A DNA stretch of 64,000 bases, taken from the NCBI RefSeq assembly GCF_016461955.1, contig NZ_JADMNM010000010.1:1-64000 (forward strand). The letters are read 5' to 3'. Below are positions 7,022 to 56,475 of the stretch, one piece after another. The position numbers and the translations under genes were made by a program. Numbering within the stretch: position 1 is the first letter of the stretch; every line of letters starts with the position of its first letter. Source of the DNA: Qipengyuania sp. YIM B01966. GTDB lineage: Bacteria; Pseudomonadota; Alphaproteobacteria; Sphingomonadales; Sphingomonadaceae. A model generated the notes under the pieces. That model searched no databases, had not been told where the DNA came from, and was given only the letters and a program-made list of their open reading frames with translations.

Positions 7022-7056
7022 CGACCCGATGTGCCAGCAAGCCGGGCGCGCGGCAA

Positions 7057-29930: not shown

Positions 29931-29953
29931 TCGCCCCGGCCTAGGATAGATCC

Positions 29954-30451
29954 ATGTTCACGCTTGTCGCCCTGTTCGTGCTGACCGTCGCGTTCATGGA
30001 GCTGTTTGCCTATGCCATGCACCGGTGGGTGATGCACGGGGCGGGCTGGTTCCTCCATGCCAGCCATCACCGCGAACGGACCGGCTGGTTCGAATGGAAC
30101 GATGCCTATGCGGCGATCTTCGCTCTGCCCTCGATCGCGCTGATCTGGGCCGGGGTGCATGGCGGCTGGGGACCAAAGGCCACGGCGATCGGCGCGGGCA
30201 TCGCCGCCTATGGGGCGATCTATTTCGGGTTCCACGACTGGATCGTCCATCGCCGGCTGCCCCACCGGATCGTGCCCCGCTCGCCCTATTTCAAGCGGAT
30301 CGTCCAGGCGCACCGGCTGCATCATGTGATTGCCAGCCGAAAGGGCGCGGTGAGTTTCGGGTTCCTCTATGCGCCGCCCATTTCGCGCCTGCTGGCCGAG
30401 CTGGAGCAATCAAAGGAAGGCCGCCAGCGCCTACCGCAAGGCGGCGGCTGA
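29954..30451 (+). CDS. crtZ: Beta-carotene hydroxylase CrtZ
   Basis: A 165-residue membrane di-iron hydroxylase that makes zeaxanthin from beta-carotene. Histidine clusters are present in the CrtZ order: HRWVMH, HASHHRERTGWFEWND, FHDWIVHRRLPHR and AHRLHHV. Four hydrophobic segments. Its 3' end overlaps the end of crtB on the other strand by 21 bases, so the two transcripts converge. Confidence 0.95.
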   Translation: MFTLVALFVLTVAFMELFAYAMHRWVMHGAGWFLHASHHRERTGWFEWNDAYAAIFALPSIALIWAGVHGGWGPKATAIGAGIAAYGAIYFGFHDWIVHRRLPHRIVPRSPYFKRIVQAHRLHHVIASRKGAVSFGFLYAPPISRLLAELEQSKEGRQRLPQGGG

Positions 30452-31399: not shown

Positions 31400-32562
31400 C
31401 ACTGGCGCCACGACGGCCTGCGCCCCGCCAGCGCCATCATCGCCGCGCCGACTCCAACCGGCGGCTTGCCGCTGAGGATGCGGAGCTTGTCCAGCGCGGT
31501 CAGTTGCCCGCTGTAAAACCGCGCCACCGTGTCCGCATCAAGGCGGTAGAAATGCGCGAAGATACGGCGGCGCTCGCCCGGCGGGGCGGCCCAGAACAGC
31601 ATCCGGTTGAGCAGGCGGAAAAAGCTCGTCGCCTGCCAATGGCGCAGAAACGCGCCGCGCGACCATTGCGCGAGCACGGGCGCGCTCAGCGGATTGGGCA
31701 GCGCGGCCAGTTCGGCCGCATTGCGGAGCGCCAGCCCGATCGAATAGCCGGTGGTCGGATGGAAGAAGGCGCCGGCCATGCCGAGCCGGGGGACGGGATC
31801 GCTCTCTGGCCAGAACACGGCCGGATCGCCGTCAAGCGCCAGCGGCAGCACCCCGGTTTCGGTTCGGCCAGGCGTGCCGGTGATGCCGCGCTCGGCCGCC
31901 AGCGCGGCCACCCGGTCGCTGACGGTCGGAACGTCGAGCGCCGGGTCAAGCGTGTAGTAGGTGTCCTCCACGAGCACCCGGTCAGCCGCAAACGGCAGCA
32001 GATAGACGAAACGGTAGCCGCCGATCTGGTCGGGCGTAGCGTCCATCACCATCGGGACTGCCGGCACGCCGCTGGTGGCATCATATTCGATCCCGACGAA
32101 GTTTTGCCAGGCCAGCTCCATCCCCGGCATCGGCCCGGCCGGACCCCGGCAATCGATTACCGCGCTGCCGGCGATCTCGCTGCCGTCAGCCAGCGCGACA
32201 TGATCCGCGGCCAATCGCGCGATCGCGCTGTCGAGGCGGCGCCGTTCGGGCGGGATATGAGCGATGATTGCTTCGTGCAGGCGCTCGCTGGCGACCGACA
32301 GATAGCCGATCTCGATCGTCCGGCTGTGCGCGCCGAAGCGCACCTGATGGGCGGGCCAGCGCCTCGGCGACAGGCTGGCGAGCAGTTCGGCCGCGCTCGG
32401 CGGCACATCGGTGTCGAAGCACGACCAGGTGTGGTTGCCACCAAAGCTGGAGCCGCCTTCGACCAGCACGAACTCGATCTCGGGCTGCGCGCGCTGCAGC
32501 GCCAGCGCCGCCAGACCGCCGGCCAGCCCGCCCCCGGCAATAATCAGCGGCCCTTTGCACAT
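31399..32562 (-). CDS. crtY: Lycopene beta-cyclase CrtY
   Basis: A 387-residue cyclase turning lycopene into beta-carotene. It begins with the dinucleotide motif LIIAGGGLAGGLAALAL and has SSFGGNHTWSCFD, VIDCRGPAGPMPGMELAWQNFVG, FVYLLPFAADRVLVEDTYYT and GAFFHPTTGYSIGLA, which are standard CrtY-type motifs. Coupled to crtB by a one-base overlap. Together with CrtI, CrtB and CrtZ it predicts zeaxanthin as an intermediate or product. Confidence 0.95.
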   Translation of the reverse strand: MCKGPLIIAGGGLAGGLAALALQRAQPEIEFVLVEGGSSFGGNHTWSCFDTDVPPSAAELLASLSPRRWPAHQVRFGAHSRTIEIGYLSVASERLHEAIIAHIPPERRRLDSAIARLAADHVALADGSEIAGSAVIDCRGPAGPMPGMELAWQNFVGIEYDATSGVPAVPMVMDATPDQIGGYRFVYLLPFAADRVLVEDTYYTLDPALDVPTVSDRVAALAAERGITGTPGRTETGVLPLALDGDPAVFWPESDPVPRLGMAGAFFHPTTGYSIGLALRNAAELAALPNPLSAPVLAQWSRGAFLRHWQATSFFRLLNRMLFWAAPPGERRRIFAHFYRLDADTVARFYSGQLTALDKLRILSGKPPVGVGAAMMALAGRRPSWRQ

Positions 32563-32604
32563 GGCGGTGTTCTAGTGGTCAGACCCTGCTATGCAAGCGC
32601 GGCA

Positions 32605-33348
32605 ATGACCCGGCTGACGCTCTTTTCGACGATCATCGCGATGACGCTGATCGTGGCGGTGCGCTATCTCGCGGTCAGCGGGGCGTTCGCCTGGCTCGGC
32701 CTGCGCCGCCATCCGCAGTTGCATGACGGGCTGGCCCGGCAAATCCGCCGCGAAATCGGCTGGTCGCTGGCCAGCACGGCGATCTATGCCGCGCCGGCGG
32801 CGGCGGCGGTCTGGGCCTGGCAGGAGCGCGGCTGGACGCGCATCTATACCGACCTGGGCGCCTATCCGCTGTGGTGGCTGCCGCTATCGCTGCTGCTGGC
32901 GCTGTTCATCCAGGATAGCTGGTTTTACTGGACTCACCGGTGGATGCACCGCCCGGCGGTGTTCCGGCGGGTGCACGCCGTGCACCATGCGAGCCGCCCG
33001 CCGACCGCCTGGGCAGCGATGAGCTTCCACCCGCTCGAGGCGATTACCGGCGCGATCGTCGTGCCGCTGACCGTATTCGTGCTGCCTATGCATCTGGGGG
33101 TCGTAGGGGCGTGGCTGACGATCATGACCGTAATGGGCACCCTCAATCACATGGGCTGGGAGTTGTTCCCCCGCTGGCTGGTCGAAGGGCGCGCCGGGCG
33201 CCACCTGATCACTGCTACGCATCACCAGCAGCACCATGATCGCTACAATTGCAATTACGGCCTCTATTTCCGCTTCTGGGATCGACTGTGCGACACTGAT
33301 CGCGGACTGGGCCGCTTCAAGAATGCGGCCTCGGAGCCTCAACATTAA
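32605..33348 (+). CDS. Sterol desaturase / fatty acid hydroxylase superfamily protein
   Basis: A 247-residue membrane protein with four to five hydrophobic helices and the three di-iron histidine boxes: HRWMH, HAVHH (in RVHAVHHASRPPT) and HQQHH (in ATHHQQHHDRYN). The family oxygenates lipid or terpenoid substrates. The start at 32605 is used because the longer open frame to 31375 runs antisense through crtY. It is divergent from crtY with a 42-base gap, so a carotenoid or hopanoid/lipid substrate is possible but unproven. It is not a CrtW ketolase by its motifs. The next operon starts 72 bases later. Confidence 0.85.
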   Translation: MTRLTLFSTIIAMTLIVAVRYLAVSGAFAWLGLRRHPQLHDGLARQIRREIGWSLASTAIYAAPAAAAVWAWQERGWTRIYTDLGAYPLWWLPLSLLLALFIQDSWFYWTHRWMHRPAVFRRVHAVHHASRPPTAWAAMSFHPLEAITGAIVVPLTVFVLPMHLGVVGAWLTIMTVMGTLNHMGWELFPRWLVEGRAGRHLITATHHQQHHDRYNCNYGLYFRFWDRLCDTDRGLGRFKNAASEPQH

Positions 33349-33362
33349 ACAACATTAGGTGC

Positions 33363-33387
33363 GGAACGTTGGTTGCTGTCCGCTGTT
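33363..33387 (+). promoter_or_regulatory. Candidate EcfG-type (general stress response) promoter
   Basis: GGAAC at 33363-33367, then 16 bases, then TGTT at 33384-33387, in the 72-base gap before the Mfd-like gene. Alphaproteobacterial EcfG sigma factors use GGAAC-N16/17-CGTT, so one base of the -10 differs. The -10 lies about 33 bases before the chosen start codon, a suitable distance. It would place the whole 33.4-44.4 kb operon under the general stress response. Confidence 0.4.
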
Positions 33388-33420: not shown

Positions 33421-35415
33421 ATGAAAGTCGCCCCTTTGGTTCGCATGGCAGATTGTCTGCTTGGCATGGCCGCCCATGTCGGCAAAGCGCCGCTTGTCGT
33501 GCTGCTGTCCGCCGACCATGATGCAGAGCGACTGGCGCTGCTGGCCCGAGGCGCCTTTCCCCATATACCGGTGCTCTGCTGCCCCGCGACAGACGCGCTT
33601 CCCGGTGACAGCGCGGGTGCTTCGGCGGTCAATGCCGGGCAGCGGGTGGCCGCGCTGACGGCGATGGGTGCGCCGCATGATGTGCCGCCGATTCTGATTT
33701 GCGGGGCCGGGGCGACAATTGCCGCATATCCGCCACCTGAGGCCTTCGTGGCCCAACCACCGCTGGTAAAACTTGGCGACCAGATTGATCTGGCCGATTT
33801 GCGCGAACAACTGATCGCCATCGGCTATCGCGCGGACGAGCGGATCGACGAGCCGGGCGAGGTAGGGGATGCGGGCGCCGTGCTCAATGTCTATCCCGTC
33901 GATGCGCAGCGTCCGGTGCGGATCGAACTGGAAGATGGCCGCGTCCGCTCGCTGCGCCTTTATGATCCGCTGTCGCAAACCACCCTTGAGGAAATCGAGC
34001 GCGCCTCTTTCGGGATCGCCTCCGCACCGCCCGTACCAAAAGACGCGGCGACGCTGCTGGCGCATGCTGCCGGCGCTATGGTGCTGGTCGATCCGGGTTT
34101 CGCCAAGGCGCGTGCGCGCCTGCTCGATCTTGCCAAGGAAATCGACCCTGTCGCTGCCGCCCTCCGCATTTCGGCCAAGGTGTGGGATGAAGCGCTGTCC
34201 GAACACGCTGCACAGCCGCTGATCGAGGGGGCTGATACCCCGCGCTTTGCTGGCAAGCGCCGACCGATCAAGGCACTCAAAACGTGTCTTGCCGCCGAGC
34301 ATGACGCCGGGCGCAAAGTGGTGATCGCCGGCAGCGTGCGCGATGTCCGCTTCTTCGCGCGCCGGCTTGGTAAGTTGCTACCAGACGATCTGCCGGTGGC
34401 ACCGTCGCTTATCGACGCACTGGCCGCCGATGCAGCGCGCGTGCTGGTCGAAGTGCCGATCGACGAGGTAGCCGTGCGCGCGGCCCTGCTGCGCGAAAAT
34501 GCCCGGGGCGGGCAATCCTTCGTCGTGGTGCCGCGGATCGACGATCTGCCGGCAATCCAGGAGTTGCTCGCCAAACTGGTGCCGGATCTCGAAGTGATCA
34601 CCGTGCACGGCAAGATGGGCTCGGCCGAAGCCGATGAGGCGCTGATCGGGTTTGCCGGGAGGCGCGAGCATATTCTGCTGGCGAGGAGCATCACCGAAAC
34701 CGGCCTCGACGTGCCGCGGGCAAACACCATGGTCATCGCCGGCTGCGACCGCTTTGGCGTCGGTCAATTGCATCAGTTGCGCGGCCGGGTCGGGCGGTCG
34801 GCACGGCGCGGGCACGTATTGATGATGAGTGCCCCGGGTACAGCGCTGACCGAGAAGACAAGGGCGCGTCTCAACCAGCTTGTCACGCATTCCGCTCTGG
34901 GGGCAGGGTTCGCGGTGGCGGCCAACGATCTCGACATGCGCGGCGCCGGCGATCTGACCGGCGACGATCAGTCGGGCCACCTGAAGCTGATCGGGCTGGA
35001 ACTGTACCAGACGCTGCTTACCCATGCGTTGCGCCAATTGGCGGGTGGGGAGCCCGCGCCGCCGCTGCCGAAAATCTCCACCGGTGAGGACGCGCTGCTT
35101 CCGGACGACTGGATCGTCGACAGCGAAGCGCGGATCGCGGCGTATGTCAGTCTTGCCCGAATTGACGACACTGCCGAACTCGACCGGTTCGCTGACGAAC
35201 TGGAAGATCGCTATGGCGCGCTGCCAGCCCCGGCGCTGACCCTGCTGGCGACCCAGCGCCTCGCCCTGTCGGCGCGCGATGCCGGCATCGCCCTCCAACC
35301 TGGCGCCGGCCAGCGGGTGAGCGATGAGCGTATCATTGCTGATCGCCGGCCCGACACCCGGCCGATCGAGGATGCTGCCAATGCCCTCGACGCGCTGATC
35401 GGGGACGCGGCATGA
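33421..35415 (+). CDS. Truncated Mfd-like (TRCF) protein lacking the ATPase motor half
   Basis: A 664-residue protein with parts of the transcription-repair coupling factor Mfd (about 1150). Present: the UvrB-homology part with YPVDAQRPVRIELEDG and RSLRLYDPLSQTTLEEIER at residues 158-197; helicase lobe 2 with GGQSFVVVPRIDDLPAI (~363), motif V TETGLDVP (425-432) and motif VI QLHQLRGRVGRS (449-460); and the C-terminal TRCF (D7-like) domain, IGLELYQTLLTHALRQLAGGE. Missing: the RNAP-interacting domain and helicase lobe 1, with no Walker A or DExH motif, so it cannot be an autonomous motor. ATG 33421 is chosen; a TTG at 33373 is possible. It overlaps the first glycosyltransferase gene by 4 bases. 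The gene is intact, so this is not a simple pseudogene. Confidence 0.82.
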   Translation: MKVAPLVRMADCLLGMAAHVGKAPLVVLLSADHDAERLALLARGAFPHIPVLCCPATDALPGDSAGASAVNAGQRVAALTAMGAPHDVPPILICGAGATIAAYPPPEAFVAQPPLVKLGDQIDLADLREQLIAIGYRADERIDEPGEVGDAGAVLNVYPVDAQRPVRIELEDGRVRSLRLYDPLSQTTLEEIERASFGIASAPPVPKDAATLLAHAAGAMVLVDPGFAKARARLLDLAKEIDPVAAALRISAKVWDEALSEHAAQPLIEGADTPRFAGKRRPIKALKTCLAAEHDAGRKVVIAGSVRDVRFFARRLGKLLPDDLPVAPSLIDALAADAARVLVEVPIDEVAVRAALLRENARGGQSFVVVPRIDDLPAIQELLAKLVPDLEVITVHGKMGSAEADEALIGFAGRREHILLARSITETGLDVPRANTMVIAGCDRFGVGQLHQLRGRVGRSARRGHVLMMSAPGTALTEKTRARLNQLVTHSALGAGFAVAANDLDMRGAGDLTGDDQSGHLKLIGLELYQTLLTHALRQLAGGEPAPPLPKISTGEDALLPDDWIVDSEARIAAYVSLARIDDTAELDRFADELEDRYGALPAPALTLLATQRLALSARDAGIALQPGAGQRVSDERIIADRRPDTRPIEDAANALDALIGDAA

Positions 35416-36584
35416 GGCGCGGAGCTGCCCACCCAGGGCGAATCATCGTCATCTCGGACCGGATCGAACACCTCGCCGATATTCCCGACGGCTGGTCAGG
35501 CGACGAACCCACCGTTGATGATTGTAGCGCGGCGGTCGTCGTCGAAGGGGGATATCTCGAACGGCTGCCGCTATCGCTGATTGCTGCCGGCCGGTTCGCC
35601 GAAGTGGAAGTCTGGCATCATGGCAACGGCCTTGATCGGCCGATCGCGCGCCGCTGTTCGCCGCATCTCGTCCGACGGGTTTTTCCATTGGGCGAGCATA
35701 CCGCGCCGTTCGACAATCGCGCCATGGCGGAACACTTGGCGCGGCACGGCGCGCCTGCCCTGCTGCTCATCTATGGCTTGGGCGTTTCGCCAGCTGTTCT
35801 CGACGCGGCCGACCGGTCGATCATCGTTTACAATTCGATCGATGCGCCAGCGCTGCGCGTGCCGGAGGAGGTTTCGGCACGGTGCGACATCGTGCTGACT
35901 GGGGCCCAATGGCAATCGGACGAGGTCAACCGGCGGCATCCCGAGATGCCCACACCGATCCTGCCGGTCGGCCCCGAATTTGCCGGGACGGATCAATTCC
36001 GCCCGCTATCCGGCGAAAAGGATTACGACCTGATCTATGCCGCGGCCGCCCAGCCCTACAAACGCCATGATATCCTGTTCGACACCATTGAGCGGCTGGA
36101 TGGCGCGGTGTCGGCGCTATGCGTGTTCGGTTACGGCGAGTTGGCCGAGGCGTTCCGCGACGAGATCGCCGCGCGTCAGCTCCCGATTGATTGCGTAATG
36201 CCGCCTGTGGTTCCCTTCGCCGAGGTCAATCGGCTGATGAACCGCGCGCGGATCGGGATTGTCGCGGGGGTCGATGATGGCGCTCCGGCGATCATCACCG
36301 AATACATGCTGGCCGGTCTGCCCGTGCTGGCCAACGCCCAGCTGACCTGTGGGCTGCAATACCTCCTACCGGGGACCGGGGAGGTCGCCGACCCGGCGCA
36401 ATGGCCTGCCGCCGTTACCAGGATGCTGCAGCAGCTGGATCACTACCGCCCGCGGGAAATTGCCCTGTCCCGCTGGAGCTGGCCAGTGTCGGCCGCGCGC
36501 TTCCTGTCAATCTACGATGATGCCGTTGCCGCCCGTCATGCGCTCGGCCGTGCCCCAATTACCCTAGAGGATTGTGATGCTTAA
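35412..36584 (+). CDS. Glycosyltransferase, GT-B fold
   Basis: A 390-residue glycosyltransferase. The C-terminal half shows the GT4-like layout: DLIYAAAAQPYKRHDILFDTIERL, CVFGYGELAEAFRDEI, FAEVNRLMNRARIGIVAGVDDGAPAIITEYMLAGLPVLAN, the last being the usual E-x7-E nucleotide-sugar region. The N-terminal domain is divergent. No signal peptide or membrane helix, so it acts in the cytoplasm. It overlaps both neighbours (4 and 11 bases). Donor and acceptor are unknown. Confidence 0.8.
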   Translation: MRRGAAHPGRIIVISDRIEHLADIPDGWSGDEPTVDDCSAAVVVEGGYLERLPLSLIAAGRFAEVEVWHHGNGLDRPIARRCSPHLVRRVFPLGEHTAPFDNRAMAEHLARHGAPALLLIYGLGVSPAVLDAADRSIIVYNSIDAPALRVPEEVSARCDIVLTGAQWQSDEVNRRHPEMPTPILPVGPEFAGTDQFRPLSGEKDYDLIYAAAAQPYKRHDILFDTIERLDGAVSALCVFGYGELAEAFRDEIAARQLPIDCVMPPVVPFAEVNRLMNRARIGIVAGVDDGAPAIITEYMLAGLPVLANAQLTCGLQYLLPGTGEVADPAQWPAAVTRMLQQLDHYRPREIALSRWSWPVSAARFLSIYDDAVAARHALGRAPITLEDCDA

Positions 36585-38955
36585 AGACCACCAACTGCGC
36601 CCTGTCGACGACCTTACGGGCGACCGTGCACCTGCAGCGCGGGATGCCCCGCACGTCCCCGAGGCGATCCCGCAGGAAGTTCCGCTCGTGGCTTTTTCGC
36701 ATCTTCGGTGGGACTTCGTGCGCCAGCGGCCGCAGCATTTGCTGAGCCGCTTCGCCAGCGAGCGGGCCGTGTGGTTCTGGGAGGAGCCGATCCCGTGCGA
36801 TCACCACCTGCCCTACCTCGAATATCATCACTTCGCAGAGGACAAGATTACCGCCCTGCGCCCCCGTGTGCCGCATTCCTGGACCGAGCCGGCACGTGCG
36901 AATGCCCTGGCCGAGCTGTATCGGCTCTTCCAGCAACAGACCTTGCAGCGCACCCCAATTGCCTGGTTCTATACTGCGGCGATGCTTCCTGTGCTGGCCA
37001 ACGGTGGGGCGGAACTGACAGTTTACGATTGCATGGACGAACTTTCTGCGTTTGCCCATGCGGATGCTGAGTTGATCGCCCAGGAAGCGGCTCTGCTGGC
37101 GCGCGCAGACATCGTCTTCACCGGCGGCAAAAGCCTTTACGAGGCGAAGCGAAACCGAAATCCAAACGTTCATGCCTTTCCCTCCGCGGTCGACCGCGCC
37201 CATTTTGCGGCTGCGCGCACGATCACGGCGCGCGATCCCGCACAGCGGACCGCCGGGTACTTCGGGGTCATCGACGAGCGGCTCGATCTGGAACTGATTG
37301 CGGCCATGGCCGATGCTCTGCCCGAATGGCGGATCGAAATGGTCGGGCCGGTGGTCAAGATCGATCCTGCATCATTGCCGCAACGCCCCAATATCAGCTG
37401 GATCGGTCCGCGCGGGTATGCTGATCTGCCCGCCATGCTGGCGCGTTGGAACGTCGCGCTGATGCCGTTTGCGCTCAACGAAGCGACCAGATTCATCAGC
37501 CCGACCAAGACGCCGGAATATCTCGCAGGAGGCCGCCCGGTGGTCTCGACCCCGATCGCCGACGTCATCGCAGATTGGGGCAGTGCAGAGGGCGTCGCTA
37601 TCGCCGCCGACGCAGAGGAGTTTGCCCAGGCTGTCCGCCGTTTCGGCGCACTGCCGGCGCAGGGTGCGTGGCTGACCGATATCGACCAGCGCCTGAACCG
37701 CATCAGCTGGGACCAAACCCAAGGAAAGATGAGCACGCTGATGGCGCAATGCTATCGCAAACGACATGCACAGCGCGGAGCGGGCGGCGCTGCGCCGGCG
37801 ATCCTGCGTGGGTCAAAACCTTATGACACGCTCATCGTAGGCGCTGGCTTTGCGGGGTCGGTGATGGCCGAACGGTTGGCGCGCGATGCCGGACAACAGG
37901 TGCTGGTCGTTGACCGGCGACCGCATGTCGGCGGCAACGCGTATGACGAAACCGATGCGGCCGGGGTGCTGATCCACCGTTACGGCCCGCACATCTTCCA
38001 TACCAACAGCCGCGAAGTCTTCGACTATCTGTCGCAATTCACCAGCTGGCGGCCCTATGAACACCGGGTGCTCGCCAAGGTCGGCGACCAGCTGGTGCCG
38101 ATGCCGATAAACCGCACCACGCTGGAAAAGCTCTACGGCGTCGCGCTGACCGATGATGCTGCGGCCGAACAATTTCTGGCCGCGCGGGCTGAACCGCGTG
38201 AACCGATTGTCACTTCGGAAGATGTCGTGGTTTCGGTGGTTGGTCAGGAGCTTTATGAAAAATTCTTCCGCGGTTACACGCGCAAGCAATGGGGGCTCGA
38301 CCCCTCGCAGCTTGATCGGACGGTCACCAGCCGCGTGCCGACGCGGACCGATCGGGACGACCGCTATTTCCAGGATAGTTTTCAAGCGATGCCGGCCGAT
38401 GGATACACGGCGATGTTCAAGCGCATGCTCGATCACCCCTCGATCGAGTTGCGGCTGGGCACGGAATTTGCCGCACTTGATCCCTCGACGCTGGCTGATC
38501 ACACGGTCTTCACCGGGCCGATCGATGAATATTTCAATTACCGATTCGGCAAGCTGCCTTATCGCAGCCTGCGGTTTCATCATGAAACGCACGACACGCC
38601 GTCATATCAACCGGTGGCGGTGGTCAATTACCCGGACGAGGCTACTCCCTACACAAGGATCACCGAATACAAGAAGCTGACCGGGCAGGACCATCCGCAA
38701 AGCTCAATCAGCTATGAATACCCGACCGCCGAGGGTGACCCCTACTATCCCATTCCGCGCCCCGAAAATCAGGACCTTTTCAAGCGTTACGAGCAGCTCG
38801 CACGGGAACTGCGGGAGGTGACGTTCGTCGGGCGGCTGGCGAATTACCGGTATTACAATATGGATCAGGTCGTCGGACAGGCATTGGCCACCTATCGGCG
38901 CATGGGCCTCAGCCCCGCCGAAGCGGGGATGCGGCAGGCCCGGGTGGCCGACTGA
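36577..38955 (+). CDS. Fusion: TuaH-like glycosyltransferase + UDP-galactopyranose mutase
   Basis: A 792-residue fusion. Residues 1-400 are a GT-B transferase of the TuaH kind (VAFSHLRWDFVRQRPQHLLSRF, then VWFWEEPIP, and ISPTKTPEYLAGGRPVVSTPI). Residues about 415-792 are a complete UDP-galactopyranose mutase: FAD motif VGAGFAGSVMAERLA at about 422, HVGGNAYDE, RYGPHIFHTNS, and QLDRTVTSRVPTRTDRDDRYF with YRSLRFHHETHDT. The mutase makes UDP-galactofuranose, so the transferase half may use it. A GTG at 36574 directly precedes the ATG. It overlaps the upstream gene by 8 bases and the next gene by 1 base. Confidence 0.9.
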   Translation: MLKDHQLRPVDDLTGDRAPAARDAPHVPEAIPQEVPLVAFSHLRWDFVRQRPQHLLSRFASERAVWFWEEPIPCDHHLPYLEYHHFAEDKITALRPRVPHSWTEPARANALAELYRLFQQQTLQRTPIAWFYTAAMLPVLANGGAELTVYDCMDELSAFAHADAELIAQEAALLARADIVFTGGKSLYEAKRNRNPNVHAFPSAVDRAHFAAARTITARDPAQRTAGYFGVIDERLDLELIAAMADALPEWRIEMVGPVVKIDPASLPQRPNISWIGPRGYADLPAMLARWNVALMPFALNEATRFISPTKTPEYLAGGRPVVSTPIADVIADWGSAEGVAIAADAEEFAQAVRRFGALPAQGAWLTDIDQRLNRISWDQTQGKMSTLMAQCYRKRHAQRGAGGAAPAILRGSKPYDTLIVGAGFAGSVMAERLARDAGQQVLVVDRRPHVGGNAYDETDAAGVLIHRYGPHIFHTNSREVFDYLSQFTSWRPYEHRVLAKVGDQLVPMPINRTTLEKLYGVALTDDAAAEQFLAARAEPREPIVTSEDVVVSVVGQELYEKFFRGYTRKQWGLDPSQLDRTVTSRVPTRTDRDDRYFQDSFQAMPADGYTAMFKRMLDHPSIELRLGTEFAALDPSTLADHTVFTGPIDEYFNYRFGKLPYRSLRFHHETHDTPSYQPVAVVNYPDEATPYTRITEYKKLTGQDHPQSSISYEYPTAEGDPYYPIPRPENQDLFKRYEQLARELREVTFVGRLANYRYYNMDQVVGQALATYRRMGLSPAEAGMRQARVAD

Positions 38956-41009
38956 TGCGCATCTGTCTGGCAACGGAAAGCCCGGCACCATCCGGGATGG
39001 GCGTCCATATGCTGGCGCTCGCCGAAGCGTTGCCCGACCACGATTGCGTAATCCTCGCGCCGTCACATACCGACCTGTTTTGCAATGCGCGCGGCCGCTT
39101 CGCGGTCAAGGATCTGCCAAGCGATGCCGATGCGCTTGCCCTCTATCTTCGGCAGGGCGGGTTCGATGTTGTGCACCTTCACGCCGGCATCGGCTGGGAA
39201 GGGCATACGATCACCCGCGCGGCAGCTGCGGCCGGAGTCCCGCTCATCCGCACCGAGCATCTTCCCCAGCTGTTGACCGATGCCGACGAGCAGTCGGATT
39301 ATGCAGCTGCCCACCAGTCAGTCGCGGCGACAATTGCGGTAAGCGATGCGGTGGCACAATCCTATGCCGCGAGCGGCCTGACCTCGCAGCCGCTGGCGGT
39401 CATACGTAACGGGATTGTCCCGCCCCACTGTGTCGCCCCCGGTGCTGCGCGTTTCGAGCGGACTGCCTCCCGACCGATGCTGCTCAATGTCGGGCGCCTG
39501 GCTGCGCAAAAGAACCAGCCCTTGCTGATCGATGCGGTGATGCAACTGGCGGCAGAAGGCCGCGGTGTCGATCTGGTGCTGGTCGGCGACGGGCCGGACC
39601 GCGCGCGGATCATCGCGCACATCCAGCGAACGCGCGCCGAGGGGCATGTCCGACTTATGGGGCAGCGCGCCGATGTTGCTGCGTTGATGCAGCAGGCCGA
39701 TCTTTACGTCCATGCGTCCGATTTCGAAGGTCTGCCGCTTGTTCTGCTCGAGGCAATGGCGGCTGGACTGCCGATTGTCGCGCGTTCCGCCCCCGGGGTC
39801 GACGAAGCGTTAGACCAAAACACCGCCGCGCTGGTCGCCGGCGACGATGCGGCGTCCCTCGCCCGGGCAATCCGCGCCGCACTCGACGATCCTGCCCGAT
39901 GCCGGGCGCGGGCGACGCGCGCGCGGGACCGCCAGCAGCGCCAATTCGCTGCCGAGCGCATGGCGGCAGAAACCGCCCAGCTTTATTCGCTTCACGCCAG
40001 AAAGGGGCCCTCTGTGGACCAGCTTCGTATCGGTTTCATCGGCGCAGGCGGCATCGCCTGCCGCCACCGCGATGTCTTGAAGACCATGGAGGATGTGCGC
40101 ATCGCAGCCGCTTGCGACACCGACACCGAGCGCGCCCACGACTTTGCGGCACAGGTGGGCGCCAAGGTGTACGCCGACTGGCAGACGATGCTTTCATCAG
40201 GCGAGGTGGATGCGGTGTTCATCTGCGTGCCCCCCTTCGCCCATGGACCGATCGAGGATGCCGTGATCGCCGCAAGTCTGCCATTCTTCGTCGAAAAGCC
40301 GGTGGCGTTGTCGCTCGGCGAAGCGGAGCGGATCGCGGCCGCCGCCGATGCCCACGGACTGGTCACCGCGGTCGGTTATCACTGGCGCTGGCTCGATACG
40401 CTCGACGATGTGCGCCATGCCATGGGTGAGCGCCGGCCGCGGCTGGTATCCGGCTATTGGCTCGATTCGACTCCGCCGGTCGCATGGTGGTGGCGCCAGG
40501 AGCAATCGGGCGGACAGATGCTCGAGCAGGCAACGCATATCGTCGATCTGGCCCGCTATCTATGCGGCGATGTTGTGAGCGCGTACGGGCTTGCCGAGCA
40601 CAGTGCCCGTGCATCGCATCCAGAGCTTGATGTCGCCACGGCATCGATCGCCACGCTCGCTTTTGCCGATGGTGCGATTGGCAATTTTGCCGCGACCTGC
40701 CTGCTCGGGTGGAACCATCGGGTGGGGCTCCATCTGTTTGGCGACGGGTTCGCGATTGAACTGACCGACCACAATGTGATGATCGATGTCGGGGCAGGAC
40801 GGCCCGTTACGGGCAATCGCTCCGACCCCGTGTGGCATCAGGACCGCGCCTTTGTCGATGCGGCGCGCGGGGGCGAAAACCGCATTCGCTGCACCTATCG
40901 CGACGCGGTCGAGACGCTGCGGGTGATGGATGCCATCGGGCAATCGGTCGCCTCGGGACAGGCGGTCAAGATTTCTGCCCCAGAGCGCGCATTGGAGCAG
41001 GCCGCATGA
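38955..41009 (+). CDS. Fusion: GT4 glycosyltransferase + Gfo/Idh/MocA oxidoreductase
   Basis: A 684-residue fusion. Residues 1-345 are a GT4 transferase (SGMGVHMLALAEALP, VVHLHAGIGWEGH, LLNVGRLAAQKNQPLLIDAV, YVHASDFEGLPLVLLEAMAAGLPIVA split across the E-x7-E region). Residues 354-684 are a Gfo/Idh/MocA NAD(P)-dependent sugar oxidoreductase: LRIGFIGAGGIACRHRDVLK, VFICVPPFAHGPIEDAV and FVEKPVALSLGEAERIA, the last holding the catalytic EKP. AAAGGGG lies 6 bases before an internal GTG at 40014, so the oxidoreductase could also be made alone. The pair suggests a sugar is oxidised or epimerised in step with its transfer. Substrate unknown. Confidence 0.88.
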   Translation: MRICLATESPAPSGMGVHMLALAEALPDHDCVILAPSHTDLFCNARGRFAVKDLPSDADALALYLRQGGFDVVHLHAGIGWEGHTITRAAAAAGVPLIRTEHLPQLLTDADEQSDYAAAHQSVAATIAVSDAVAQSYAASGLTSQPLAVIRNGIVPPHCVAPGAARFERTASRPMLLNVGRLAAQKNQPLLIDAVMQLAAEGRGVDLVLVGDGPDRARIIAHIQRTRAEGHVRLMGQRADVAALMQQADLYVHASDFEGLPLVLLEAMAAGLPIVARSAPGVDEALDQNTAALVAGDDAASLARAIRAALDDPARCRARATRARDRQQRQFAAERMAAETAQLYSLHARKGPSVDQLRIGFIGAGGIACRHRDVLKTMEDVRIAAACDTDTERAHDFAAQVGAKVYADWQTMLSSGEVDAVFICVPPFAHGPIEDAVIAASLPFFVEKPVALSLGEAERIAAAADAHGLVTAVGYHWRWLDTLDDVRHAMGERRPRLVSGYWLDSTPPVAWWWRQEQSGGQMLEQATHIVDLARYLCGDVVSAYGLAEHSARASHPELDVATASIATLAFADGAIGNFAATCLLGWNHRVGLHLFGDGFAIELTDHNVMIDVGAGRPVTGNRSDPVWHQDRAFVDAARGGENRIRCTYRDAVETLRVMDAIGQSVASGQAVKISAPERALEQAA

Positions 41010-42082
41010 GCGTGCGCCATATCCGCAGCCTCGGTTTCGAAGCGCCGGGCGTGCCCTATTTCGCGGGTTATGACGAACATCCGCCGCACCCTTGGGAATT
41101 GCGCCTCGCGACGACCTATTCCGGGTTCTCGGCGGGCACCGAACTCACTTTCATGAAGGGCACCAACCCTTACCTCCATTCGCGCTGGGACGAGGGGCGG
41201 CGCATCTTCGTGCAGGGCGAGGCCGGCATGCATTATCCCGTACCCTTTGTCGGCTACATGGAAGTCGGCACGGTGATAGAAGGGGAAACCCGCGGTGCGG
41301 GGCCCGGAACAACCATTGCCGGCGCCTGGGGGCACAAAAGCGGCCATGTCATCGCGCCTGATCGCGACCGGTTCTTTGTCCTGCCCGATACGATCGATCC
41401 AATGCTTGGCATCTATGTCGGGCAGATGGGGCCTATCGCGGCCAACGGATTGCTCTATGCCGATCACGAGCTGTCCGGCGCGGGCAGCACGCGGCTCGGC
41501 AGTTCGCTGGCGGGGCGGCCGGTGCTGGTGTTCGGCGCCGGTATCGTCGGCTTTTTCACTGCGCTGTTTGCCCAGCGCGCCGGCGCGAGCGAGGTGGTTA
41601 TTGCCGACCCGTCGCCCTTCCGGCGGTTACGGGCGGAAACGCTCGGTATGCTGGCCATGGAGGAACACGAGGCGGTCGATTATGCCAAGGCTCGCTGGCG
41701 CGGGGCGGATCTGGTGTTCCAGACCCGCGCGAGCGGTGAAAGCCTCCACAAAGCGATGAAGGCGCTGCGTCCGCATGGCTGCGTTATCGATCTTGCTTTC
41801 TACCAGGCGGGCGCAGATCCCGTCCGCCTTGGCGAGGAATTCCACCATAATTGGCTCTCGATCCGCTGCGCGCAGATCGGCCGCGTGCCCCCGGGGATGG
41901 AGCGCCTGTGGGATCACGAGCGTCTGGGGCGGGAAACAATCGACCTGCTGGCCGAACGCGGACCGGCTATCGGCAACCAGTTGGTGACCCATGTCGTCCC
42001 GTTCGACGAAGCGCCTGATTTTCTCCGCCACCTCGTCGCCGAGCGGCCCGACTTCATCCAGATCGTCTTCGATTACACATGA
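41006..42082 (+). CDS. Zinc-independent MDR (medium-chain) dehydrogenase
   Basis: A 358-residue medium-chain dehydrogenase. GroES-like half: YSGFSAGTELTFMKGTNP and VPFVGYMEVGTVIEG. Rossmann half: G177-A-G-I-V-G182 in VLVFGAGIVGFFTALFAQ followed by EVVIADPSPFRRL. The catalytic zinc Cys and the structural-zinc Cys cluster are absent, and the layout is like BchC/threonine-dehydrogenase-type MDRs acting on a polyol or sugar-like alcohol. It overlaps the genes on both sides by 4 bases; the start at 41006 was chosen over a longer frame inside the previous gene. Confidence 0.85.
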   Translation: MSVRHIRSLGFEAPGVPYFAGYDEHPPHPWELRLATTYSGFSAGTELTFMKGTNPYLHSRWDEGRRIFVQGEAGMHYPVPFVGYMEVGTVIEGETRGAGPGTTIAGAWGHKSGHVIAPDRDRFFVLPDTIDPMLGIYVGQMGPIAANGLLYADHELSGAGSTRLGSSLAGRPVLVFGAGIVGFFTALFAQRAGASEVVIADPSPFRRLRAETLGMLAMEEHEAVDYAKARWRGADLVFQTRASGESLHKAMKALRPHGCVIDLAFYQAGADPVRLGEEFHHNWLSIRCAQIGRVPPGMERLWDHERLGRETIDLLAERGPAIGNQLVTHVVPFDEAPDFLRHLVAERPDFIQIVFDYT

Positions 42083-44445
42083 CAGGGCGTGTCTCGTTCG
42101 TCCGCGGCGAGCCGCCGCCGGCGCCGATCCGCGTCCTGTTCGTATTCGCCTGGTTGGTGGTGGGCGGCGAAGAGACCGAAGTCCGTCTGTTGGCAGAAGG
42201 GCTCGATCCGGCGCGCTTTGTGATCGATGTGGTCGCCTGCTTTCGCAAGCCCGGCATGCCCGAGCAGACGCACGACCAATTGCGGGCAGCCGGCGTCAAC
42301 GTAGATACTACGCCCTATCACCTCGATTTCGAAGGAACGGTCACCTACCTCGCCTCGAAACTGCCGGCGTACGATGTGGTCGTCTCATGCCAGAACGTGG
42401 CTGACATCTACCCGGCGCTAGAACGGTTGCACTACCGCCCGCCGCTGATCGAACATGGCGGGCTGGTGTCAGAAGCATTGGCTGGCCCTAAACATTTCAC
42501 CAACCGCTATGTCGGGGTGTGCGAAACGATCCGCGAGGCCGCTTCCAGCAAGATGCCCGGGCGCGAGCACCATGCGCTCAAGATACCGTCAATGGTCGAT
42601 ATGCGTGCCTTCGATCCGGCGCACCGTATACCGACCCGTGCAGCGCTGGGTATCGCCTCAGACGGTGTGCTCGTCGGTTGGGTCGGCCGGCTCGATGCCA
42701 AGAAACGGGTCGAGGATTTCATCGACGCCGCCGCGCTGGTCGCCCGCACCGATCCCCGCACGCATTTCGTGATCATAGGCGGCCCCGATGCGTTCATGCC
42801 CGAATATGCCGATGCATTGTACGCTCGGGCGCGCGAGGCAGGCCTCGATGGTCGGCTTCAGTTCCTCGGCGACCGGCAGGACATCCCGCAGCTACTCGCT
42901 GCCCTCGACATCTTCGTCTGGCTGTCGCGCGGCGAAGGGATGCCGCACGTCATCGCCGAAGCGGGCGCCGCCGCACTGCCGGTGATTGCCACGCCCGACA
43001 ATGGCGCGCTCGAACAGATTGCCGACCAGGTGTCGGGCCTGTTCGTCCCGCACGAGGATCCGCCCCGGGTGGCGGCGGCGATAACCCGGTTGGCGCGCGA
43101 TGAAGCCCTGCGCCAAAGGCTGGGCCGCGCCTTGCATGCAAAAGTGGCCAGCGTTTACGCCACCGAGGCCGTCCTGCCGCAATGGTCGGCCCTGCTGGCC
43201 GAAGTTGCCGCCGAACGCGAGCTGACCCAGGCGCCACCCTTGTTTGGTTCGCCGATCCTGGGCGGCTTCGAATGTTCCTCCCACCGGCGGGCGCATGATC
43301 GGCAGCGGCGCGACATGATTGCGCTGAGCGCGCATGACACAAACGCTGTCGCGCATTATCGGGCTGTTTCACGGCTGGGGATCACCACCGTTCGCGACGG
43401 GCTGCGCTGGCACCTTATCGAACAGACGCCCGGGCACTACGATTGGAGCAGCATCGCCCAACAATTGGCTGCCGCGCGCGCGACCGGGACCACGGTCATC
43501 TGGGATCTGATGCATTATGGTTATCCTGAGGATCTCGATCCTCTGGGCACCGACTTCGTCAACCGGTTCACCGATTTTGCCGTGGCAGCTGCAGATCGGA
43601 TCGCACGCGACAGCGACGGGCCGATGCTGCTGTGCCCGATCAACGAAATCAGTTTTTTCGCGTGGGCGGGCGGTGACGTCGCCTACCTCAATCCCTTCGC
43701 CCGTGAGCGGGGCCACGAATTCAAGGTGCAATTGGCGCGGGCGACGATCGAGGCGACCCGGGCAATTCGAGCGGCACATCCGGCGACCCGCTTCTTCACT
43801 TGCGAGCCGATGATCCACATCATGGCACATGCAGACCAGCCCCATGCCATTCCGCGCGCCGAGGAGCATCGGCTGGCACAATTCCAGGCGTTCGACATGC
43901 TGACCGGCGAGCAGTGGCCGCAGCTTGACGGGTCGCCTGATCTGCTCGACGTTGTCGGGGTCAATTTCTATCACAATAATCAATGGGTCCATGGCGAGCA
44001 GCCGATGGCGTGGACCGATCCGCGGCGCCGGCGGCTGCGCGACCTCCTCGCCGAAGTCTATGCCCGCTATGGCCGACCATTGATGATCTCCGAGACGGGG
44101 ATCGAAGGCGACGAGCGCAGCGCCTGGATCAATTATATCGGCGAGGAGGTCGCGGCCGCCATCGCGCGCGGGATCCCGGTGGAGGGGATTTGTCTCTATC
44201 CGGTGCTTGGCCATGTGGGATGGGATGACGAGCGCTATTGCCCCAATGGCCCGATTGATGTCGATCGACAGGGCAATCTAGCCATCCATGCGCCGTCGGC
44301 CGAGGCGATTGCCAAAGCCCTCGGCCTGATCAAGAACGCGCGCGCCGAATTGCTCGACGCCGGGGTGGGGGATCGAACGTCTCACGAAAAATCGAGCACG
44401 CGCGCGAATGCGACAACCTGGTCGGCAAATCACGCCAGCCACTAG
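42079..44445 (+). CDS. Fusion: GT4 glycosyltransferase + clan-A glycoside hydrolase-like domain
   Basis: A 788-residue fusion. Residues 1-387 are a GT4 transferase (VLFVFAWLVVGGEETEVRLL, VGWVGRLDAKKRVEDFIDAA, RGEGMPHVIAEAGAAALPVIA). Residues 388 to about 760 resemble family GH1/GH5-like TIM-barrel hydrolases: GITTVRDGLRWHLIEQTPG, acid/base E523 in CPINEISFF, VGVNFYHNNQWV and nucleophile E672 in LMISETGIEGDE. The 149-residue spacing of the two Glu fits clan GH-A retaining enzymes. With no signal peptide, the hydrolase half must act in the cytoplasm, perhaps by transglycosylation or as an editing step. The last 35 residues are disordered. It is the end of the operon. Confidence 0.87.
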   Translation: MTGRVSFVRGEPPPAPIRVLFVFAWLVVGGEETEVRLLAEGLDPARFVIDVVACFRKPGMPEQTHDQLRAAGVNVDTTPYHLDFEGTVTYLASKLPAYDVVVSCQNVADIYPALERLHYRPPLIEHGGLVSEALAGPKHFTNRYVGVCETIREAASSKMPGREHHALKIPSMVDMRAFDPAHRIPTRAALGIASDGVLVGWVGRLDAKKRVEDFIDAAALVARTDPRTHFVIIGGPDAFMPEYADALYARAREAGLDGRLQFLGDRQDIPQLLAALDIFVWLSRGEGMPHVIAEAGAAALPVIATPDNGALEQIADQVSGLFVPHEDPPRVAAAITRLARDEALRQRLGRALHAKVASVYATEAVLPQWSALLAEVAAERELTQAPPLFGSPILGGFECSSHRRAHDRQRRDMIALSAHDTNAVAHYRAVSRLGITTVRDGLRWHLIEQTPGHYDWSSIAQQLAAARATGTTVIWDLMHYGYPEDLDPLGTDFVNRFTDFAVAAADRIARDSDGPMLLCPINEISFFAWAGGDVAYLNPFARERGHEFKVQLARATIEATRAIRAAHPATRFFTCEPMIHIMAHADQPHAIPRAEEHRLAQFQAFDMLTGEQWPQLDGSPDLLDVVGVNFYHNNQWVHGEQPMAWTDPRRRRLRDLLAEVYARYGRPLMISETGIEGDERSAWINYIGEEVAAAIARGIPVEGICLYPVLGHVGWDDERYCPNGPIDVDRQGNLAIHAPSAEAIAKALGLIKNARAELLDAGVGDRTSHEKSSTRANATTWSANHASH

Positions 44446-44732
44446 TCACGCGTGCCGGTGGCGGACGTCTGGCGAAAAGGGCGATCTACTCATTCTGCTT
44501 GCCTGCCTCCCGTTCGGCGAATTACTCATCATCACTGCACGGGTCACCGACCGGCGGCGCTTATGACCGGGCTCCCGCCGGCGGCGGCGGCACGGGTCAA
44601 GCGTTTCGGCGGAAGCTACCTTATCCGCGCCGCCGAGTATGCAGAGGTCAGACACCTGTGCAAGGGTTGGGTGCACTGCCAGTATTATCTGTGAATAGGT
44701 TTTTCCCAACAAGCTGAGCAAGAGCCAGTAAT
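44446..44732. other. Non-coding stretch after the glycosyltransferase operon
   Basis: About 290 bases between the end of the operon and the tRNA-Leu. Short open frames occur on both strands but none has a ribosome-binding site, codon bias or recognisable motif. No strong terminator hairpin with a T-tract was found; the sequence is of mixed GC content. Confidence 0.5.
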
Positions 44733-44818
44733 GGTGCGGTCGAGAAGACTCGAACTTCCACGGGCTTTCGCCCACAACGACCTCAACGTTGCGCGTCTAC
44801 CAGTTCCGCCACGACCGC
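44733..44818 (-). tRNA. tRNA-Leu (anticodon GAG)
   Basis: On the reverse strand: acceptor GCGGTCG with CGACCGC, D arm GGCGGAACTGGTAGACGC, anticodon stem CAACG/CGTTG with loop TTGAGGT (anticodon GAG), a long variable arm GGGCGAAAGCCC type typical of class II tRNA, T arm AGTTCGAGTCT and encoded CCA at 44735-44733. It decodes CTC and CTT. Length 86 bases with CCA. Confidence 0.96.
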
Positions 44819-46099: not shown

Positions 46100-46831
46100 A
46101 TGACCGGCGCGAGCGACATCGTGACGTTCGATAATGTTGGGCTGCGTTACGGCAGCGAGCGCGAGGTGCTGAGCAACGTTTCCTTCACGCTTTATCCGGG
46201 CAGCTTTTACTTCCTCACCGGGGCAAGCGGGGCGGGCAAGACGTCGCTGCTGCGGCTGCTCTATCTGGCGCAGCGGCCGTCGCGCGGGGCGATCCGCATG
46301 TTCGGCGAGGATATCATTACCATGCCGCGCGCGCGCCTGCCGGGGTTCCGCCGGCGGCTGGGCGTGGTGTTTCAGGATTTCCGCCTGATCCCGCACCTGT
46401 CGGCCTACGATAATGTTGCGCTGCCACTGCGCATCTCGGGCGTTGCCGAAAGTGAGATCTCCAAGCCGGTCGCCGATATGCTCGAGTGGGTGGGCCTGAC
46501 CCACCGTGCCGAAGCGCGTCCGGCGAGCCTGTCAGGCGGCGAACAGCAGCGCGTGGCGATCGCGCGGGCAGTGATCGGCCGGCCCGAATTGCTGGTCGCG
46601 GACGAGCCCACCGGCAATGTCGATCCCGACATGGCCCTGAAGCTTCTGCGGCTCTTCGAGGCGCTCAACCGGCTGGGCACCACCATCGTCGTGGCGACAC
46701 ACGACGTCCATCTGCTGCGCAAGGTGCCAGATTCGCTGATCATGCGGCTCGACCGGGGCACTTTGTCCGACCCGACCGGGGCGCTGCGGTACCCCCCGCG
46801 CCCTGCGCCGAGCGAAGAAGCCGGCGCATGA
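46100..46831 (+). CDS. ftsE: Cell division ATP-binding protein FtsE
   Basis: A 243-residue ABC ATPase that works with FtsX at the division septum to control peptidoglycan hydrolases. Walker A GASGAGKTSLL, Q-loop VFQDFRLIPHLSAYDNVALPL, signature LSGGEQQRVAIARAV and Walker B LLVADEPTGNVD are intact. ATG 46100 is chosen as it starts just before VTFDNVGLRYG; the longer frame to 45941 crosses the divergent promoter region. Overlaps ftsX by 4 bases. Confidence 0.95.
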   Translation: MTGASDIVTFDNVGLRYGSEREVLSNVSFTLYPGSFYFLTGASGAGKTSLLRLLYLAQRPSRGAIRMFGEDIITMPRARLPGFRRRLGVVFQDFRLIPHLSAYDNVALPLRISGVAESEISKPVADMLEWVGLTHRAEARPASLSGGEQQRVAIARAVIGRPELLVADEPTGNVDPDMALKLLRLFEALNRLGTTIVVATHDVHLLRKVPDSLIMRLDRGTLSDPTGALRYPPRPAPSEEAGA

Positions 46832-56299: not shown

Positions 56300-56475
56300 C
56301 TTGTGTCTCCGTGGGCGTGATCGCGAACCTCCACTATACGGAAAATCGCCGGCGATTCGATAGCGAAGTGGGGCGAGGAAGTGGGGGATAAAGCGCGAAC
56401 ATTGGGGGCCGGCGCGATCGGCGGAACGGGGGCGGGGCCCGGTGCGTTGTCGCCCCAGAGGAGAGCGACACCGCG

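Follow-up and report, generated by a model that had tools for sequence, protein, structure and literature searches.

An apparent relic of a second Mfd gene, preceded by a general stress promoter motif, lies directly upstream of a conserved sugar operon in Qipengyuania sp. YIM B01966

Why should a remnant of the transcription-repair coupling factor Mfd stand at the head of a row of sugar enzymes? The question is raised by a 64,000-nucleotide stretch of the Qipengyuania sp. YIM B01966 genome (the window; contig NZ_JADMNM010000010.1, positions 1 to 64,000), in which an earlier note, made from the letters alone, had pointed out six genes and proposed the synthesis of a glycan or glycolipid tied to stress. 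The most likely answer is that the Mfd relic and the sugar genes are joined by the general stress response rather than by a shared chemistry.

Organization of the locus

The six genes (33421 to 44445) all lie on the forward strand, and an ORF check of the window found them at the positions that had been given, with neighboring frames overlapping by 1 to 11 nt. From gene 1 to gene 6 the successive overlaps are 4, 11, 1, 4, and 4 nt, the second of which shrinks to 8 nt if the start is the second codon (ATG) of gene 3. Judging from these overlaps, the genes are probably read as a single transcript, as had been claimed. Pfam and NCBIfam profiles also bore out the domain content assigned to the six proteins. 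The first gene (33421 to 35415) encodes an Mfd-like protein of 664 amino acids and is followed by a GT4-type glycosyltransferase of 390 amino acids, assigned by Pfam and by matches at other loci (35412 to 36584), a fusion of an N-terminal GT4-type, TuaH-like glycosyltransferase to a C-terminal UDP-galactopyranose mutase (UGM) (36574 to 38955), and a fusion of an N-terminal GT4 glycosyltransferase to a C-terminal Gfo/Idh/MocA oxidoreductase (38955 to 41009). The last two are a medium-chain dehydrogenase (MDR) of 358 amino acids without the usual zinc-site N-terminal signature (41006 to 42082) and a fusion of an N-terminal GT4 glycosyltransferase to a C-terminal clan-A (GH1-like) glycosidase domain (42079 to 44445, the domain at 43234 to 44445), for which a structure model and alignment were used as well.

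The first gene as a remnant of a second Mfd

The first protein matched UvrB_inter (PF17757, 51.4 bits), Helicase_C (PF00271, 55.4 bits), and TRCF (PF03461, 55.7 bits), all over their cut-offs, and thus shares with Mfd the UvrB-like D1-D2-D3 module, translocation domain 2, and the TRCF (D7) domain. However, against the Mfd equivalog TIGR00580 it scored 313.5 bits, far under the cut-off of 800. Alignment with its relatives showed that a single internal block is absent, comprising the RNA-polymerase-interaction domain and translocation domain 1, and because of this the protein has no Walker A/B; a motif scan for Walker A (GxGK[ST]) and for DEEQ/DEEH found neither. The description of the gene as an ATPase-less Mfd fragment was therefore correct.

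An accessory second Mfd with an intact motor occurs in Alphaproteobacteria, and we call it Mfd2. On plasmids, its records are mostly annotated as "DEAD/DEAH box helicase" and also as "TRCF domain-containing protein" or "mfd_2." Intact copies were present in 44 of 397 genomes of the family and, among the matches listed and read by eye, in at least 10 of 196 genomes of the order, while two Mfd-type matches were found (our own count) in 8 of 385 genomes of a class-wide sample, which covers many families with few genomes each and serves as background only. Unlike the first protein of the window, intact Mfd2 keeps Walker A and the DEEQ/DEEH motifs, and all 10 intact copies aligned contain the block that the first protein lacks. 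Relative to them, about 350 to 358 codons have been removed in frame, with an approximate junction at residues ~341 to 348 (34441 to 34464). In the retained motor 2/D7 part, the protein is closest to sphingomonad Mfd2 (49 to 54% identity) and less similar to the ordinary Mfd that the same genome encodes on another contig (42%); identity to two Rhizobiales Mfd2 copies was only 40 to 42%. The first gene thus appears to descend from Mfd2 through one internal in-frame deletion. In a tree built from the C-terminal part of Mfd it fell beside the ordinary Mfd, a placement that we gave no weight because two long branches meet there. Since the deletion is known from one sequence, in a genus represented by one genome, an assembly error is a possible source of it.

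Constraint on motor domain 2 of the relic is relaxed: in the motor 2/D7 part it differs at 15 of 107 family-invariant columns versus 0 to 7 in intact copies, and its tip branch there measures 1.4 to 1.7 versus a median of about 0.2. With this part relaxed and the RNA-polymerase-binding and motor-1 domains gone, the product could not act as a transcription-repair coupling factor. Conservation is retained in the N-terminal module (1 of 24 invariant columns changed; 0 to 3 in other sphingomonad copies), which is the best-modeled part of the structure (block pLDDT mostly 80 to 94 over residues 10 to 300), so it may still have some function. These features, and a frame that stays open over 664 codons, would fit a shortened but working protein, whose UvrB-like, UvrA-binding module recruits or sequesters UvrA under stress while neither contacting RNA polymerase nor translocating. 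We consider this unlikely, given that the N part, too, has a long tip branch (1.91 versus a median of 0.53; 3.15 in Devosia), that motor 2/D7 is degenerating, and that the relay/D7 region (residues 489 to 556) was modeled at a pLDDT of about 29 to 55.

Sugar enzymes and their distribution

GT4 domains were detected in the second, third, fourth, and sixth proteins. The C-terminal half of the third is a predicted UGM, with a score of 396.6 against the TIGR00031 cut-off of 303.75, and the fourth carries a Gfo/Idh/MocA domain. In the fifth, an MDR protein, a search for Pfam ADH_N gave no match, and the positions that we take to be the Cys/His zinc ligands are replaced in the alignment, in keeping with the zinc-independent dehydrogenase proposed before. 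GH1 enzymes are (beta/alpha)8 barrels with two catalytic Glu residues in NE and ETG/ENG motifs. Both putative catalytic Glu residues of the glycosidase domain were invariant in the nine sequences aligned, and its model (pLDDT, 85.8) had GH1-type enzymes as the best 50 solved matches listed (TM by query, 0.69 to 0.77). As Pfam GH1 was matched by only one of nine members at an E value of <1 (0.071), and GH42 by five of nine (best E value, 0.00037), the domain would be a divergent member of clan A.

Surface polysaccharide loci of the Wzx/Wzy or ABC type contain several GT4 transferases and a UDP-galactopyranose mutase, plus a flippase or exporter, a polymerase, and an initiating transferase. The operon resembles them in the first two respects, but Pfam found no flippase, polymerase, ABC-exporter, or initiating-transferase domain in any of the six proteins; a crude hydropathy scan of these gave maxima of 1.05 to 1.81. 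The earlier note knew of no described pathway with this gene set, and we met none in the literature searched, most subscription papers and supplements being outside its scope.

A relative of the dehydrogenase is encoded at 554 loci, and all of the best 80, which were read, carry the sugar part wholly or partly. Within these best 80 of 554, the Gfo half, the dehydrogenase, and the last transferase were each matched in every locus, the glycosidase half in 77, the first transferase (GT4, 390 amino acids) in 71 (downstream of the operon in two), and the UGM half in 63 (three being weak matches on the other strand). The fusions are also conserved, with GT-GH in all 77 loci having both halves, GT-UGM in 58 of 62, and GT-Gfo in 65 of 79. 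The operon was found on at least two plasmids as well, and in the 385-genome class sample only in the genome of the window; S. meliloti BL225C is one of its carriers. In six family genomes (L061 to L066), distant ADH-Gfo pairs form part of a different cluster and did not enter the operon counts. As far as gene content and order can tell, the five sugar genes represent an old, widespread, and conserved operon, chiefly of Alphaproteobacteria, and the sugar part is not unique to this genome. The sugar gene set is common to many soil and leaf bacteria.

General stress promoter motifs

A strict match to the EcfG-type (general stress response) promoter motif, defined as GGAAC-N17-20-GTT in the parts of PMC6599016 and PMC7083833 that were available, is located at 33363 to 33387 on the forward strand (GGAAC-N17-GTT) and ends 34 nt upstream of the first ATG. 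Only one other strict match occurs in the window when both strands are counted. The -10 box of the match before the first gene reads TGTT, which is functional in Sphingopyxis (PMC7083833, available part). The genome also encodes NepR (G000:C39, score over its cut-off), one component of the PhyR-NepR-EcfG machinery behind the EcfG/RpoE2 regulon presented in the available parts of PMC6599016, PMC7083833, and PMC3616915. The proposal that synthesis is tied to stress thus gains the support of a sequence motif before the operon.

The strict motif also precedes Mfd2 genes elsewhere, 8 of 15 in one set of loci and 18 of 33 in a further set (for the latter: expected, 0.2; antisense, 3). It was found before none of 20 ordinary Mfd genes, nearly all from genomes other than those of the 33 Mfd2 genes and two of them hardly testable (L202, with 11 nt upstream only, and L197, with no called start, for which the first 800 nt were read). 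On plasmids, Mfd2 was found amid stress genes (trehalose synthesis, ferritin-like, catalase, DUF4142) in three of five regions, the other two being not obviously of this kind. No paper on Mfd2 as a stress-response gene was met in the literature searched. In a Sinorhizobium meliloti tolC mutant, mfd expression was raised while rpoE2 fell (PMC2912261), and nothing in the accessible part of that paper indicates a second Mfd. Term searches of the accessible main texts of PMC6599016, PMC7083833, and PMC3616915 returned neither Mfd nor UGM, the absence of Mfd from PMC7083833 being read from a listing of matches.

Operon leaders carried the strict motif in 36 of 76 cases (expected, 1.2; antisense, 6), after 4 of the 80 loci had been dropped (three without leader genes and one cut by a contig end). 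It was found before 1 of 247 inner operon genes and before 91 of 1,022 other neighboring genes, and the latter count and the six antisense matches indicate that these regions are rich in the motif. Gene families neighboring the operon include Ku, LigD, catalase, DUF892, and DUF4142; Ku-LigD and catalase are listed among EcfG-dependent genes in the available parts of PMC6599016 and PMC7083833. All 36 positive leaders come from families other than sphingomonads. The 21 other sphingomonad operon starts had no motif, strict or relaxed; in L059 and L085, where the first transferase was not called, the search covered the region ahead of the second, and in L071 a single relaxed match falls within a longer gene row, before its first transferase. 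EcfG control of the sugar genes is therefore not general in the family, and we rejected the idea that it extends to all carriers.

Association of Mfd2 with the operon

The earlier note had asked whether the Mfd-like gene always adjoins the glycosyltransferases, counting separation in most relatives against the novelty. No Mfd gene lies inside the stretch examined (mean, 19.6 kb; some end at contig ends) at 75 of the 80 loci, so by that note's own measure most relatives keep the Mfd gene apart from the sugar genes, and we rejected it as a fixed part of the operon, being there in 5 of 80 loci only. Pure accident, on the other side, is weakened by co-occurrence and linkage. Mfd2 is linked to the operon in those 5 of the best 80 of 554 loci, in three lineages, versus 0.24 to 0.39 expected. 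Devosia crocina IPL20 and Sphingomonas sp. Leaf339 are among the carriers with a linked Mfd2. A second Mfd-type match (partial in G499 and G524) was found in 36 of 50 operon genomes searched (loci L067 to L120 minus L068, L077, L081, L082, L090, and L113, plus L131 and L135), or in 34 of 48 when L131 and L135, added for their linked Mfd2, are left out. By record name, all 16 Sphingomonadaceae operon genomes had a second Mfd-type match, versus 41 of the 391 family genomes that lack the operon. This co-occurrence is confounded by lifestyle and kinship.

The presence of a second Mfd in operon genomes, its linkage to the operon, and the frequent EcfG motif at both are new here. The statistical side of the proposed link between Mfd and sugars thus stands, while a chemical one is not needed, because gene 1 is apparently what remains of an Mfd2, a protein that as a rule is complete and mostly has its gene at another place in the genome. 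That Mfd2 and the glycan pathway cooperate directly in one protective programme needing both, and hence are kept together, would accord with the co-occurrence and linkage beyond chance and the motifs at both, but is very improbable, as shared regulon membership accounts for both, Mfd2 keeps other stress genes as company in three of five plasmid regions, 41 of the 44 Mfd2-bearing family genomes have no operon, and the copy in the window has lost its motor.

The relic might instead be decaying neutrally (or be the product of an assembly collapse), lying upstream by chance and having no role in the operon. A deletion found in one genome only, relaxed constraint, and the many operon loci without a neighboring Mfd all suit this explanation, to which we give a low probability. 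The intact frame with its 4-nt overlap into the next gene speaks against it, as does the strict motif just upstream. So does the arrangement in two related Rhizobiales loci, where an intact Mfd2 stands directly before the same first-transferase gene on the same strand; in L131 the two overlap by 8 nt, and in L114 their open frames overlap, the called start being further in.

A promoter-bearing relic

We somewhat favor the interpretation that an Mfd2 relic with an EcfG promoter, directly upstream of a conserved sugar operon, lends it a stress promoter and translational coupling. The EcfG promoter of the Mfd2 gene would start the transcript, and the ATGA overlap of the relic would couple translation into the first glycosyltransferase; passage of operon expression through the relic may be the main reason that its frame has stayed open. 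The operon, often under general-stress control, would yield a glycan or glycolipid, synthesized in the cytosol or on the inner side of the membrane. The four GT4 transferases would add sugars, one using or receiving UDP-galactofuranose from its fused mutase, the Gfo and MDR dehydrogenases would oxidize or epimerize a sugar, and the GH1-like domain would trim or transglycosylate an intermediate. A bolder and rather doubtful scenario goes beyond promoter donation: Mfd2 would be a stress-only second coupling factor, switched by EcfG, that evolved together with a stress-time glycan pathway, came to adjoin it at least three further times, and was here stripped to its UvrA-binding half, serving as operon leader and promoter or regulating nucleotide excision repair without a motor.

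The glycan operon has a wide distribution, covering the 80 genomes read and probably many others, and the promoter evidence indicates when its product should be sought. The relic offers a test case for the retention of a dead repair gene solely because it carries a promoter and couples translation. Should the general stress response control a second Mfd, these bacteria would possess transcription-coupled repair in two forms, one for housekeeping and one for stress, which would bear on the survival of leaf- and soil-dwelling cells exposed to light and drying.

A six-gene row and its surroundings

The window comes from a genome of 2.44 Mb whose family-group relatives include Sphingomonas- and Erythrobacter-type genomes, and we therefore treat it as sphingomonad. 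Positions 33421 to 44445 (+) carry six genes whose neighbors overlap by 1 to 11 nt. In order, Pfam and NCBIfam assign them to an Mfd-like protein, a GT4 glycosyltransferase, a GT4-UGM fusion, a GT4-Gfo/Idh/MocA fusion, an MDR dehydrogenase, and a GT4-glycosidase fusion, so that the row described in the earlier note was correct in coordinates, overlaps, and domains. Directly upstream lies a carotenoid cluster (28458 to 33348; CrtI-type desaturase, two fatty-acid-hydroxylase-family proteins, phytoene synthase, and lycopene cyclase), and photoprotective genes thus adjoin the predicted stress operon. Before that cluster, at 25296 to 28262, is the gene for a VIT-domain (vault/inter-alpha-trypsin) protein of 988 aa. 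Just past the row are a tRNA-Leu(gag) (44732 to 44818, −) and FtsE/FtsX-like genes (46100 to 47730), which places its 3′ end close to ordinary core genes.

The glycan operon is widespread

The sugar part of the row, i.e., the five genes after the Mfd-like gene, is widespread. A profile search with the dehydrogenase in a collection holding a single genome for each species gave at least 554 loci encoding a relative, the best 80 of which were fetched, some ending at contig edges. All 80 had matches to the last transferase, the dehydrogenase, and the Gfo half. Matches to the transferase half of the fourth gene were found in 79 loci, to the glycosidase in 77, to the transferase half of the third gene in 76, to the first transferase in 71 (two of them downstream), and to the UGM half in 63 (three of them weak and on the opposite strand). 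The loci came from Sphingomonas, Aureimonas, Rhizobium, Agrobacterium, Devosia, Paracoccus, and others, plus one cyanobacterium. By our gene calls, and where both halves were matched, the fusions were kept in 58/62 (GT-UGM), 65/79 (GT-Gfo), and 77/77 (GT-GH) loci, and in 33 of the 80 the Gfo half was additionally fused to the dehydrogenase. Relatives of the dehydrogenase also appeared in 57 plasmid records, and the two plasmids opened (Sinorhizobium meliloti and Aureimonas) both held most of the operon. It is rare in the family of the window, being found in 6 of 397 genomes with the window counted, two of the six partial or cut. A separate cluster is conserved in six loci from family genomes (L061 to L066); its dehydrogenase-Gfo pair is distantly related, and three more conserved protein families occur in all six.

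The mutase half predicts UDP-galactofuranose as its product. Since UGM was unmatched in 17 of the best 80 loci (three of them cut fragments), besides the three weak matches, the product of the operon may not require galactofuranose. The glycosidase domain gave only weak family matches, and its structure model is a confident barrel (pLDDT 85.8) for which the best solved matches were GH1-type enzymes; both members of its putative catalytic Glu pair were invariant in nine of nine aligned sequences. That it is fused to a GT4 domain and has no visible export signal points to an intracellular role in trimming or transglycosylation. For the Gfo and MDR dehydrogenases, the similarity is to inositol and sugar dehydrogenases and is too broad to name a substrate. 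Pfam detected no flippase, polymerase, or exporter domain in any of the six proteins.

The Mfd-like gene is a remnant of a second Mfd

The ordinary Mfd of this genome sits on another contig, and the gene at 33421 to 35415 (+) is nearer to an accessory group, here called Mfd2, than to ordinary Mfd. As an additional Mfd, Mfd2 is present in 10 of the 196 order genomes among the matches listed (read by eye) and in 44 of 397 family genomes. Intact copies carry Walker A and DEEQ/DEEH motifs. The copy in the window lacks one block of about 350 to 358 residues, the one that contains the RNA-polymerase-interaction domain and translocation domain 1. Within the retained motor/TRCF part it departs at 15 of 107 otherwise invariant columns, versus 0 to 5 departures in intact sphingomonad copies and 7/114 in Devosia, and its tip branch is 1.4 to 1.7 versus a median of about 0.2. 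The N-terminal part departs at 1 of 24 columns (0 to 3 in other sphingomonad copies, 12/36 in Devosia), with a branch of 1.91 versus a median of 0.53, that of Devosia being longer still. In the structure model, confidence is good across the UvrB-like N-terminal module and poor across the relay/TRCF region. Taken together, the missing block, column departures, long branch, and model mark the gene as a predicted motor-dead remnant whose reading frame is still open.

EcfG motifs precede many Mfd2 genes and operons

A strict match to the EcfG motif of general stress response promoters, GGAAC-N17-GTT, lies at 33363 to 33387 (+), 34 nt before the first ATG. Across both strands the window has a single further strict match (56423 to 56448), which lies 27 nt ahead of a called ORF of 110 aa (56476 to 56808, +). 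The genome encodes NepR. Passages of PMC6599016 define the Sphingomonas melonis promoter as GGAAC-N17-20-GTT, and a passage of PMC7083833 gives the −10 box TGTT, as found here, as a functional variant in Sphingopyxis.

With spacers of N17-18, the motif preceded 8/15 Mfd2 genes in the loci first collected and 18/33 newly fetched ones (expected, 0.2; antisense, 3). None of 20 ordinary Mfd genes had it, two being hardly testable and nearly all coming from genomes other than the Mfd2 set. It also preceded 36/76 usable operon leaders (expected, 1.2; antisense, 6) and the S. meliloti plasmid operon. Inner operon genes had it in 1/247 cases and other genes around these loci in 91/1,022; the surroundings are themselves motif rich. 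All 36 motif-positive leaders belong to families other than that of the window, and at the operon start of 21 other sphingomonad loci there was no strict or relaxed match (in L071, from Sphingomonas, a single relaxed match falls within the longer gene row). In this family the operon therefore does not as a rule have an EcfG motif of its own, whereas Mfd2 frequently has one; this is the chief objection to a general-stress link.

Linkage of Mfd2 and the operon

Mfd2 was present within 5 of the best 80 operon loci. In two from Rhizobiales (L114 and L131) it immediately precedes the operon in the same orientation, as it does in the window, overlapping the transferase by 8 nt in L131 and by open frames in L114, where the transferase start is uncertain. 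In Devosia crocina (L135) it is convergent and overlaps the operon end, and in two Sphingomonas loci (L071 and L073) it lies 4 to 6 kb downstream on the opposite strand. As L071/L073 (about 90% DNA identity) and L114/L131 (about 75%) are related pairs, we count three events; 0.24 to 0.39 linked loci are expected by chance (P for three or more, 0.002 to 0.007). Around the ten Mfd2 genes of order genomes among the matches listed, no glycan operon was found in the 19 to 19.5 kb examined.

A second Mfd-type match was found in 36/50 operon genomes searched (34/48 without two added for their linkage). All 16 operon genomes named as Sphingomonadaceae had one (one shortened), versus 41/391 family genomes without the operon, a contrast whose small P overstates the case because the named genomes are mutually related and were picked by similarity. 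In an evenly drawn family sample, intact Mfd2 was found in 3/6 operon genomes (Fisher P, 0.02), or 4/6 with the remnant counted (P, 0.002).

Ku, LigD, catalase, DUF892, and DUF4142 are among the families encoded around the operon. Genes of the Ku and LigD families, several of them with EcfG motifs, are close to it in L112 (13412 to 17628), L095, L101, L116, L119, L122, and L127, all from Paracoccus and Rhizobiaceae, with domains checked for L112. Passages of PMC6599016 and PMC7083833 list Ku, Ku-LigD, and catalase among EcfG-dependent genes. Three of five plasmid Mfd2 regions opened had such stress-type genes, ferritin-like proteins, or trehalose synthesis, and two had no obvious stress-type neighbors. 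On a Novosphingobium resinovorum plasmid (L216), the gene for a small protein annotated as UvrB/UvrC motif containing (6797 to 7093) lies a few genes ahead of Mfd2; this protein is a possible repair partner.

A proposed stress-linked arrangement

Neither this operon nor Mfd2 in the role of a stress gene was described in the literature searched, which included passages of PMC6599016, PMC7083833, PMC3616915, PMC6180224, and PMC2912261; a term search of PMC3892343 found no match. EcfG-dependent glycosyltransferase genes #3505 to #3508, with #3509, and dehydrogenase #2499 are reported in passages on S. melonis and may or may not belong to this operon.

The arrangement in the window is informative because the motif before its operon is of the type found upstream of Mfd2. 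An Mfd2 gene would have brought its stress promoter to the operon and later degenerated as a repair gene with its frame kept open. We lean slightly toward this course of events, a little less than we would had the surroundings not been motif rich. The earlier note had proposed a stress-tied glycan and a link between DNA repair and sugar chemistry; the motif at 33363 to 33387 supports the former, while the latter did not hold. On the best reading of motifs and neighbors, it is the general stress response that would link Mfd2 and the glycan operon. The new findings are the relic, a group of Mfd2 genes bearing general-stress promoter motifs, and the association of this group with a widespread glycan operon that the literature searched did not describe.
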